This document shows positions 25,718 through 27,152 of a DNA stretch of 64,000 bases, piece by piece (position 1 is the stretch's first letter; every line of letters begins with the position of its first letter). The translations under genes were made by a program, and so were the position numbers. Source of the DNA: Moheibacter lacus (lineage in GTDB: Bacteria; Bacteroidota; Bacteroidia; Flavobacteriales; Weeksellaceae); assembly GCF_014042165.1 (NCBI RefSeq), contig NZ_JACDZE010000001.1:766595-830594 (forward strand), given 5' to 3'. Below the pieces are notes generated by a model. That model did no database searches, had not been told where the DNA came from, and saw nothing but the letters and a program-made list of their open reading frames with translations.

Positions 25718-26767
25718 ATGGCTGCGCCTACCCGTTGGTTCAATTCTTTTTTCTATGCGCTGATCGGCGCACTGCTCATATGGCTACTCAGTTGGCTCAC
25801 TACCACTATTTTACTGGAAAGGTCATTTGAGTTCTGGATCAAACCTGATTTTATTTGGAAAGGTATTTTGATCACATTTTTCATTCCTTTTTTGGTCATT
25901 TTCTCACTTTTAGGCATTGCTTTTAATTCCTTTTCCAAACTTAATATTTCACAACTCTATGATTTGGTCCCTGACCTAAACCCTCAAAATGCAGCCAAAG
26001 ATTTTGAAAGTCTTTCGGAGCAAATTTCTTCTTTAACTGATGTGAAATCAAAAGAAATCGATTTGCTGACCGAAAGAGAAAATTACCGTCGCGAATTTCT
26101 AGGAAACGTTTCCCACGAACTCAAAACGCCACTTTTTTCTATCCAAGGTTATTTACTCACTTTAATAGAAGGAGGCGTGGAGGACGAATCTATCCGCGAT
26201 AAATATTTGAACCGAATCAACAAATCAGTAGAACGATTGACCTATATCGTAAAAGATTTGGATATGATTACCGAACTGGAATCGGGCAATTTAAAATTGG
26301 AACAAAGGCCTTTTAATATTTTAGCACTGACCAGAGAAGTTTTTGATCTTCTTGAAATCAAAGCCCAAAATAACCTAGTAACCCTGAAAATAGAAAATCC
26401 GATAGATGTCCCTATCCGAGTAGCGGGTGATATAGAAAGAATAGAACAAGTCCTCACCAACTTAATCGTAAATGCTGTTAACCATTCGGCAAAAGATAAT
26501 GCCATTGTCTCTGTTTCCTTTCAAACCGTTAACGGAAAAATCAAAACGACAATCAAAGACAATGGGGTCGGCATAAAACCGGAGCATTTAGAAAGAATAT
26601 TTGAACGATTTTATAGAATCGATAAAAGCCGTAGCCGTACGCATGGTGGATCCGGGCTAGGACTATCCATCGTCAAACATATCCTTGAAGCACATGGTGA
26701 AAAAATTCAGGTTTCCAGTACCTTTGGAGAAGGTACCGAATTTTCATTCCTACTCAACAAAGCCTAA
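25718..26767 (+). CDS. PhoR-like sensor histidine kinase
   Basis: A 349-residue membrane kinase. Two N-terminal helices (about 10-32 and 45-68) with a very short periplasmic loop, no PAS domain obvious, then HisKA with FLGNVSHELKTPLFSIQGYL (His about 132) and a HATPase domain: NLIVNAVNHSAKD (N box), DNGVGIKPEH (G1), FERFYRIDKSRSRTHGG (F box), and GSGLGLSIVKHILEAHGE (G2). The short loop suggests sensing through a membrane or transport partner, as for PhoR with the Pst system. It directly follows the response regulator in one operon. Confidence 0.92.
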   Translation: MAAPTRWFNSFFYALIGALLIWLLSWLTTTILLERSFEFWIKPDFIWKGILITFFIPFLVIFSLLGIAFNSFSKLNISQLYDLVPDLNPQNAAKDFESLSEQISSLTDVKSKEIDLLTERENYRREFLGNVSHELKTPLFSIQGYLLTLIEGGVEDESIRDKYLNRINKSVERLTYIVKDLDMITELESGNLKLEQRPFNILALTREVFDLLEIKAQNNLVTLKIENPIDVPIRVAGDIERIEQVLTNLIVNAVNHSAKDNAIVSVSFQTVNGKIKTTIKDNGVGIKPEHLERIFERFYRIDKSRSRTHGGSGLGLSIVKHILEAHGEKIQVSSTFGEGTEFSFLLNKA

Positions 26768-26780
26768 TATCTAAAAATCC

Positions 26781-27080
26781 ATTTAATTTTATTGAGCGGA
26801 CTCTGAGGAACCCGCAACATTCAGTCTACCAATTGAGCCACAAATAAAAAAATCCTATCATTTCTGAAAGGATTTTTGGAGCGGGAGACGGCCCCGATGC
26901 GTCGGGGGAACCCGCAACATTCAGCCTACCAATTGAGCCACAAATAAAAAAATCCTATCATTTCTGAAAGGATTTTTGGAGCGGGAGACGGCCCCGATGC
27001 GTCGGGGGAACCCGCAACATTCAGCCTACCAATTAAGCCACAAATAAAAAAATCCTATCATTTCTGAAAGGATTTTTGGA
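26781..27080 (-). repeat. Three 100-bp tandem units: tRNA-Gly-derived pseudo-tRNA plus terminator
   Basis: Units at 26781-26880, 26881-26980 and 26981-27080. The last two differ by one base (26935 G versus 27035 A); the first has diverged over its first 30 bases. Read on the minus strand, each unit is a decayed copy of the adjacent tRNA-Gly(TCC): the 5' acceptor strand is missing, the D-arm CTCAATTGGTAG is kept, 16 bases including the anticodon are deleted, GCTGAATGTTGCGGGTTC is kept, the T-loop GAGTC is replaced by a 16-bp palindrome CCCCGACGCATCGGGG (in units 2 and 3), and the 3' strand CCGTCTCCCGC with TCCA is intact. Each unit then contains the same terminator hairpin. Confidence 0.9.
27047..27076 (-). 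terminator. Intrinsic terminator after tRNA-Gly
   Basis: Stem AATCCT/AGGATT with A/T extension, then a run of T on the minus strand, directly after the encoded CCA of the tRNA. The same hairpin recurs in the two upstream tandem units (about 26847-26876 and 26947-26976). Confidence 0.7.
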
Positions 27081-27152
27081 GCGGGAGACGGGACTCGAAC
27101 CCGCAACATTCAGCTTGGAAGGCTGAAGCTCTACCAATTGAGCTACTCCCGC
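27077..27152 (-). tRNA. tRNA-Gly, anticodon TCC, CCA encoded
   Basis: The minus-strand sequence folds as a cloverleaf: acceptor stem GCGGGAG/CTCCCGC, D-arm with AGCTCAATTGGTAGAGC, anticodon stem TCAGC/GCTGA around loop CTTCCAA (anticodon TCC), and T-arm with GGTTCGAGTCC. Discriminator T and CCA are encoded (27077-27080). It lies convergent to the kinase gene. The tandem pseudo-tRNA units lie directly downstream of it. Confidence 0.97.

Follow-up and report, generated by a model that had tools for sequence, protein, structure and literature searches.

Behind the intact tRNA-Gly(TCC) gene of the window, by which we mean the whole 64,000-nucleotide stretch of Moheibacter lacus DNA analysed here, lies a tandem array of displaced tRNA 3' ends in which a hairpin takes the place of part of the T loop. 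On balance we favour the reading that Flavobacteriales harbour a family of minimal, homing-like GIY-YIG elements anchored at tRNA genes, and that this array belongs to it as a member without nuclease, either non-autonomous or decayed. The form taken to be autonomous is about 370-380 bp long and comprises an intact tRNA, its terminator, a nuclease gene (~80-95 aa), a copy of the 3' part of the tRNA and a copy of the terminator, with one or two defined segments of the tRNA copy exchanged for a hairpin of 14-22 nt. The repeats thus seem to be part of a group of very small selfish elements in flavobacterial DNA that has not been described before.

The tRNA-Gly(TCC) array in the window

The features of the array and its surroundings are as follows.

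27077..27152, (-): intact tRNA-Gly(TCC), the anchor gene (ARAGORN; Rfam RF00005, 74.2 bits)
27041..27076, (-): intrinsic terminator of the tRNA-Gly gene, AAAAATCC...GGATTTTTTT (from the sequence)
26977..27040, (-): remnant unit 1, with D-arm part, 16-nt anticodon deletion, hairpin-bearing T-arm, and acceptor 3' strand plus CCA
26992..27007, (-): hairpin CCCCGACGCATCGGGG in unit 1, in place of tRNA-Gly nt 57-61 (GAGTC)
26941..26976, (-): terminator copy of unit 1
26877..26940, (-): remnant unit 2, one base apart from unit 1 across the shared part
26892..26907, (-): hairpin of unit 2, a 16-nt palindrome
26841..26876, (-): terminator copy of unit 2
26791..26840, (-): distal decayed remnant, hairpin absent and acceptor end degenerate
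25718..26767, (+): convergent histidine-kinase-like gene (named from its translation), whose end is the empty-site junction in congeners

A sequence-only reading of this DNA had described an intact tRNA-Gly(TCC) followed by three 100-bp units, each lacking the 5' acceptor strand of the tRNA and 16 nt including the anticodon, with a palindrome in two units and the CCA and terminator preserved. The intact gene was confirmed by ARAGORN, which found no other tRNA in the whole window, and by Rfam at the score given above; both deletions are present in each full unit, where tRNA-derived text starts at the D arm (TGGCTYAATTGGTAG), and the two palindrome-bearing units do differ by a single base, as had been stated (CAATTAAGCC vs CAATTGAGCC). 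TRF gives the array a period of 100, 2.8 copies and a 98% match. The number of units needs correction, in that two are complete and carry the palindrome, CCA and terminator as described, while the third, at 26791-26840, has GGTTCCTCAGAGTCCGCTC where the palindrome would be, and its 3' end and terminator are degenerate. This distal remnant is probably the oldest unit of the array. Terminator copies lie at 26846, 26946 and 27046 on the (+) strand. The array holds no ORF, hence no nuclease gene in the window copy, and the hairpin of unit 1 occupies the same tRNA position as in the Phe elements described below. RNA folding of one window unit gave a 6-bp stem with a 4-nt loop (z -2.35), compared with z -1.59 for the array with other borders and z +0.88 for another piece, cut such that the hairpin was incomplete.

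Searching the genome for further copies of the palindrome, as the sequence-only reading had proposed, gave 16 places in 2.77 Mb (Gly-type pattern, up to two mismatches), 15 of which, as assigned by reading the loci, are in remnants derived from RNA genes. Because the reversed control of the pattern had 0 places in the same 2.77 Mb, the presence of the palindrome in remnants is not due to chance. The insert had also been called REP-like, a name that applies only in so far as it is a short hairpin. A plain REP/BIME reading was rejected, since in this genome CCCCGA-N4-TCGGGG-like palindromes are nearly confined to RNA remnants (15/16 places). The sole such palindrome outside tRNA and 5S remnants (L051, 1501-1516; contig C9, position 2569) lies inside a longer sequence.

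The comparison of copy number across relatives, likewise proposed beforehand, showed the array to be absent from both congeners whose orthologous Gly locus was among the loci fetched (G001 and G004). In these, tRNA-Gly and one terminator stand directly before the histidine-kinase-like orthologue (loci L005 and L002), with nothing else between, and the array is therefore best seen as a gain in this lineage, loss in both congeners being less likely. An array at tRNA-fMet, described in the next section, is absent and its site empty in all five congeners (the contig of G002 begins inside the tRNA). The evidence from empty alleles thus covers the nuclease-less arrays, Gly and fMet.

Related remnants and nuclease genes in the same genome

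Elsewhere in the M. lacus genome (G000), nine units, most of them 116 or 118 bp in length, stand behind an intact tRNA-fMet at 518.2-519.3 kb of contig C1. The T-loop hairpin (CCCCGATGCGTCGGGG or CCCCGAAGTATCGGGG) is found in eight of the nine and is absent from one unit, which holds an N; four units have a second perfect hairpin (TCCGCCGCGGCGGA or TCCGCCGAGGCGGA) that replaces the 3' anticodon strand and variable loop, and the remaining units have a related imperfect sequence at that position. One remnant at tRNA-Arg(TCG) and remnants of the 3' part of 5S rRNA at three places, with three hairpins each, are also without a nuclease gene. On contig C9 (L052, 1458-2141), a tandem pair of intact 5S rRNA genes follows 23S and is itself followed by a 5S-derived three-hairpin piece.

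At the tRNA-Asp, -Phe and -Met loci of this genome, the intact tRNA and the hairpin-marked copy of its 3' end are set apart by a small GIY-YIG ORF (~80-95 aa). These ORFs are present in tandem, with four copies at Asp, two at Phe (one truncated) and two at Met (one apparently start-less). Differences per site among the four Asp copies are mostly synonymous (pS 0.11-0.18, pN 0.02-0.05), which argues that the Asp nuclease has been under selection.

The palindrome TCCGCCGNGGCGGA of the Met, fMet and 5S remnants also has seven exact-match dispersed sites outside remnants (G000, contig C1: 574106, 587776, 595348, 1234620, 1418335 and 1640244; contig C6: 218406). Five of the six sites read have no tRNA nearby (ARAGORN on 3-kb loci, eight loci scanned), and some are within other repeat-like text. 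Another locus (L083, contig C1, ~857.9-859.2 kb) contains a small GIY-YIG gene without a nearby tRNA and with many TCGACTACCGCTCGAAGTGACAGACC-like repeat copies on both sides, which suggests a second association between a nuclease and a repeat.

Distribution and tRNA linkage across genomes

The linkage between nuclease and tRNA was examined independently of the hairpin by scanning named genomes with the Phe-type protein alignment, with no selection on tRNA or hairpin. This yielded 75 loci, and at 62 of these a tRNA on the same strand precedes the nuclease by no more than 600 nt (55 Phe, 6 Leu and 1 Met). For the 103 ORFs in these loci, a same-strand tRNA is present within 700 nt upstream in 78 cases and downstream in 1, with 0 and 0 on the opposite strand; for all 167 distinct ORFs, including those of loci fetched by the hairpin pattern, the corresponding numbers are 112, 2, 0 and 0. 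The genomes are titled Flavobacterium, Maribacter, Psychroflexus, Christiangramia, Leeuwenhoekiella, Salinimicrobium, Aequorivita, Winogradskyella and others, and we take nearly all genera among the 75 loci to be Flavobacteriaceae; the exceptions are three MAGs titled Chitinophagaceae, Bacteroidia and Woesebacteria. On the Woesebacteria MAG contig (L199), a weakly similar GIY-YIG gene lies 145 nt behind tRNA-Met, with no evident hairpin-marked tRNA copy.

Searching with the Asp-type protein gave matches in 14 of 196 genomes at E 1e-12 and led to tRNA-Asp, -Ala(GGC), -Val(TAC) and -Arg(TCT); such a tRNA is present at 18 of the 25 loci examined, and hairpin-marked copies occur in most loci read. 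The GIY-YIG profile PF01541 was above its cut-off in all seven proteins scanned, five of them tRNA-linked. A search of nine genomes with this profile gave 30 loci, which include UvrC and further GIY-YIG proteins; nine of the 30 are preceded by a tRNA on the same strand, and one of those nine is a 600-aa frame. None of the loci examined has a nuclease linked to tRNA-Gly(TCC), and a Met-linked nuclease in the congener G004 (L227) has no hairpin remnant. NCBIfam gave nothing above cut-off, and Rfam reported only ordinary tRNA and rRNA above the gathering score on the stretches submitted. A search of phages and plasmids with one Phe-type protein gave no match, nor did a search of viral contigs with one Phe remnant pattern.

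The T-loop hairpin pattern was present in 7 of 393 genomes of the order and in 4 of 296 of the window's own family, three of the latter only with one mismatch; ARAGORN found no tRNA in the loci of these three, which were left out. A slightly different T-loop pattern occurred in 3 of 247 genomes across the phylum, all three in the order, and in 0 of 217 outside it, and the reversed control was 0 in the order, family and phylum searches. The hits within the order share the anatomy seen in M. lacus. Three genomes (G557, G537 and G430) have tRNA-Phe followed by nuclease and remnant, and G407 has seven Phe-like units of ~380 bp, the tRNA being outside the 4.7 kb fetched. Nuclease-less remnants were seen behind tRNA-Leu(TAG) in G457 (one), at a contig end in G541 (three Leu-like ones) and at tRNA-Val(GAC) of G430 (L111/L266, C9:229.5 kb), where the smallest units seen, of 35 bp, consist of acceptor strand, T-arm half and hairpin with no terminator. 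A T-loop-type nuclease element is carried by each of the four genomes in which T-loop remnants without a nuclease were seen (G000, G430, G457 and G541), this being a raw co-occurrence count.

In G407, the nuclease arrays of Phe-like (L127/L265) and Asn-like (L268) type have no intact tRNA in the fetched stretch. Both arrays end, by eye, at the same unrelated sequence inside a broken nuclease ORF, and an insertion or rearrangement has probably split them from their tRNA genes.

Position and covariation of the hairpin

The position of the hairpin was determined by a placement script for 85 first-ORF rows with a tRNA close upstream. Fifty-eight were placed (L189 and L192 being counted twice among them), 13 had no remnant according to the script, 11 had too short a contig, and 3 had a remnant without a perfect palindrome. 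Eight of the 13 are at Phe, and at least two of the 13 (L032 and L173) do have a remnant by eye; the last three comprise two palindromes imperfect by eye (L257 and L174) and one script miss (L249). At Phe, all 42 placed rows (40 loci) have the hairpin exactly in the position of nt 57-61, which are missing; nine further Phe rows went unplaced, short contigs apart. At Leu(TAA) it replaces three T-loop nucleotides (5/5). The anticodon arm is replaced exactly at Ala and Arg (2/2 placed each, the Arg pair coming from one genome) and either whole or minus its last base at Val (3/3 placed), and at Asp the 3' anticodon strand and variable loop are replaced (2/2 placed). A first palindrome regular expression had detected the hairpin in 40 of 75 loci; this is an underestimate, as among the 25 of 35 negatives that were printed many have a hairpin with a shifted or mutated start.

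Covariation was examined in 43 distinct Phe remnants with recognisable flanks, which were taken by a flank pattern that does not require pairing. Stem pair 1-16 is Watson-Crick in all 43 (27 CG and 16 TA; 22.7 in shuffled data), with no half-way state, pair 2-15 likewise in all 43 (39 CG and 4 TA; shuffled 35.8), and four further pairs are invariant, whereas the would-be pair 7-10 is paired in only 9 of 43 (shuffled 17.7). Given the covarying outer pairs and a seventh pair that is mostly unpaired, the Phe hairpin is a conserved 6-bp stem with a 4-nt loop. The outer pair has changed at least seven times on the nuclease tree. Three loci with decayed flanks (L172, L174 and L181), whose stems are broken by eye, are outside the 43-remnant set.

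Phylogeny and structure of the nuclease

The clades of the nuclease track the isotype of the tRNA. In a tree built from 105 proteins (one row per locus, quick method, 94 columns, 49 of 102 inner branches open), isotype changes 8 times for 8 labels (minimum 7) when rows without a tRNA are left out, and 21 times for 9 groups (least 8, shuffled mean 45) when they are kept as a group. The Leu(TAA) and Arg(TCT) nucleases are single clades, and one group (support 96) unites elements at Val, Arg and Ala tRNAs, with the arms of the copies changed accordingly. Eleven other small GIY-YIG proteins from the same genome set form a separate clade with no adjoining tRNA; linkage to tRNA genes is thus not general for small GIY-YIG proteins.

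The nuclease is a single-domain GIY-YIG protein of ~80-100 aa that resembles UPF0213. The PDB yields a single sequence match at E up to 1, the UPF0213 structure 1zg2 (E 2.2e-4), which is also the best match by fold (probability 1.00, E 4.8e-3). An AlphaFold model with pLDDT 94.4 matches UPF0213 BH0048, HIGLE, Slx1 and the I-TevI catalytic domain with high probabilities and E above 0.001.

Expression, copying and proposed mechanism

The nuclease ORF starts a median of 48 nt past the tRNA (75 distinct gaps, each no longer than 72 nt). A terminator-like hairpin is present in 47 of the 75 gaps (5.2 in shuffles), and from the longest T-run to the start codon the median distance is 15 nt (n=74). A promoter would hardly fit into so short a stretch, and the nuclease is therefore most likely expressed from transcripts that run through the tRNA terminator.

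Identity between terminator flanks is 92% within a locus vs 59% between loci, the own copy being the best match in 28 of 37 cases. The nucleases have 46-60% identity to the first sequence of their alignment, such that about half of the residues differ. Since the terminators match locally despite this divergence, the copied part appears to come from the resident target and to be young, or else to be subject to gene conversion; repeated breakage and recombinational repair at the tRNA gene would fit the pattern under both readings.

We propose that the nuclease breaks its cognate tRNA gene, the putative target, and that recombinational repair from an element-bearing copy would restore an intact tRNA gene, with the element and the displaced 3' end behind it. 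The hairpin would label the displaced copy as non-tRNA and probably render it uncleavable, and repeated breaks with repair between tRNA and remnant would allow tandem arrays to grow. Lacking a nuclease gene just as the fMet, Arg and 5S arrays do, the Gly array was probably moved or amplified in trans by the T-loop-type nucleases (Phe and Met) still encoded in the genome, or has lost a nuclease of its own. The anatomy, the linkage to tRNA genes, the agreement of clade and isotype, the covariation and the empty sites of congeners are observations, and cutting, homing, action in trans and the role of the hairpin are proposals. It is the displaced copy that is altered, the intact tRNA being full-length and unaltered, and because the intact tRNA keeps its full sequence a plain model of homing by site disruption leaves the self-protection of the carrier unexplained. 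The exact replacement of the anticodon arm at Ala and Arg hints at a structural role of the hairpin, which exceeds what destruction of a site needs.

A bolder version, which we regard as a long shot, is that the tRNA copy with its hairpin is no scar but serves the nuclease as a functional component. Its arms, which match the neighbouring tRNA in the loci read, would act as a guide (in a transcript) or as a landing structure (in single-stranded DNA) that aims a 90-aa GIY-YIG enzyme at the tRNA gene, and copying new arms would give a new target. The compensatory changes in the stem would agree with this, as would the nuclease group whose elements sit at Val, Arg and Ala tRNAs with correspondingly changed arms. 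Were this true, the elements would be a minimal, naturally retargetable nuclease system.

If the reading as a family of nuclease elements is right, structured RNA genes of flavobacteria host what are possibly very small autonomous selfish elements (one gene, ~370 bp), each clade being bound to one tRNA isotype and leaving the tRNA intact with its 3' end duplicated. This would provide a testable answer to how a parasite survives in an essential gene without an intron, offer dozens of natural nuclease-target pairs for studying the specificity of very small GIY-YIG enzymes, and account for pseudo-tRNA arrays that a tRNA finder misses (ARAGORN lists the intact tRNA alone). It would also pose the question of why a covarying hairpin, rather than any disruption, sits exactly where a tRNA segment was.

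Alternative explanations

The nuclease might instead act on RNA, for example on the cognate tRNA, with the hairpin-marked pieces serving as decoy or antitoxin RNAs, much as in type III toxin-antitoxin systems, in which the antitoxin is a repeated structured RNA. Such a module would be in keeping with tandem structured units that have terminators and adjoin the nuclease gene, with a stem conserved by covariation, with nuclease clades that track isotype, and with replacement of the whole anticodon arm at Ala and Arg and nearly or wholly at Val. We nevertheless think it unlikely, because the GIY-YIG proteins matched by sequence or fold are either UPF0213 or the DNA nucleases Slx1, I-TevI and UvrC, and because the terminator copies match the local tRNA terminator and not those of other loci, as duplication of a target predicts. 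Similarly doubtful is a neutral tandem duplication of the tRNA 3' end into which a dispersed palindrome was later inserted, with no role for a nuclease at the Gly locus. The window array indeed has no ORF, TCCGCCGNGGCGGA is dispersed at seven exact-match sites outside remnants, and the near-identical units, absent in congeners, look like recent duplications; however, neutral duplication would hardly put one kind of hairpin in place of nt 57-61 in all 42 placed Phe rows and also at Gly, fMet and Met, place 15 of 16 CCCCGA-N4-TCGGGG-like palindromes in RNA remnants, or leave the T-loop form in 0 of 217 phylum genomes outside the order.

Slippage, one of three ideas offered by the sequence-only reading, was rejected as a sufficient cause, as it leaves unexplained the same exact substitution in dozens of genomes and the nuclease gene of the autonomous versions. 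Nearest to our result among those ideas was an integration-site relic, in that displaced tRNA 3' ends do lie at a tRNA gene; its integrase-type form, in which an element used the tRNA T loop as attachment site and left attR-like 3' fragments, was rejected and appears very improbable. Integrase elements classically leave displaced 3' fragments behind an intact tRNA, and the footprint here matches, but in the units read the space between tRNA and remnant contains either a GIY-YIG ORF or no gene, never one of integrase size, the arrays reach nine units of 116-118 bp, and the autonomous form carries a GIY-YIG gene alone. Hardly credible at all, and likewise rejected, is an assembly artefact of short repeats: there are indeed single Ns within the fMet array and next to a 5S copy, yet the window array is free of N, its units can be told apart by distinguishing bases, and the same anatomy recurs in independent assemblies, some of them in one contig (G407, G537 and G557).

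Comparison with known systems

In the open literature searched we found no description of this anatomy, and papers outside that set may exist. By sequence (1zg2) and by fold, the nearest proteins are the single-domain GIY-YIG proteins of UPF0213 and Slx1, and the clade of 11 other small GIY-YIG proteins differs from the elements in having no adjoining tRNA. Integrase-type genetic elements integrated at tRNA genes are likewise associated with an intact tRNA and a displaced 3' fragment; unlike them, the flavobacterial units read have no integrase, a single small gene, a hairpin substitution and growth into arrays. REP/RAYT systems and Rickettsia palindromic elements are short hairpins tied to or inserted in genes, whereas here the hairpin replaces a fixed tRNA segment in displaced copies and its partner is a GIY-YIG protein.

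A homing-family nuclease gene beside a putative target tRNA gene, the arrangement expected of a free-standing homing endonuclease, is what was found here (PF01541 in 7/7 proteins; 78/103 ORFs). With intronless homing by such endonucleases the elements share a stand-alone nuclease beside its presumed target, a patchy distribution and, as far as the nuclease-less arrays go, empty alleles (PMC3984707). What sets the flavobacterial elements apart is that the target, putatively cleaved, stays whole while its 3' end is duplicated, and that a covarying hairpin is found in the displaced copy (PMC3984707). The closest precedent is SegB of phages T4 and T6, a free-standing GIY-YIG homing endonuclease encoded at tRNA genes, without which, as reported for phage T6, a tRNA segment is not amplified in tandem through recombination (PMC13096335). 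In both cases a GIY-YIG nuclease gene adjoins tRNA genes; SegB is phage-encoded and amplifies full-length tRNA together with segB, while hairpin-marked displaced 3' ends and one-isotype clades belong to the flavobacterial elements and do not appear in the SegB account consulted (PMC13096335).
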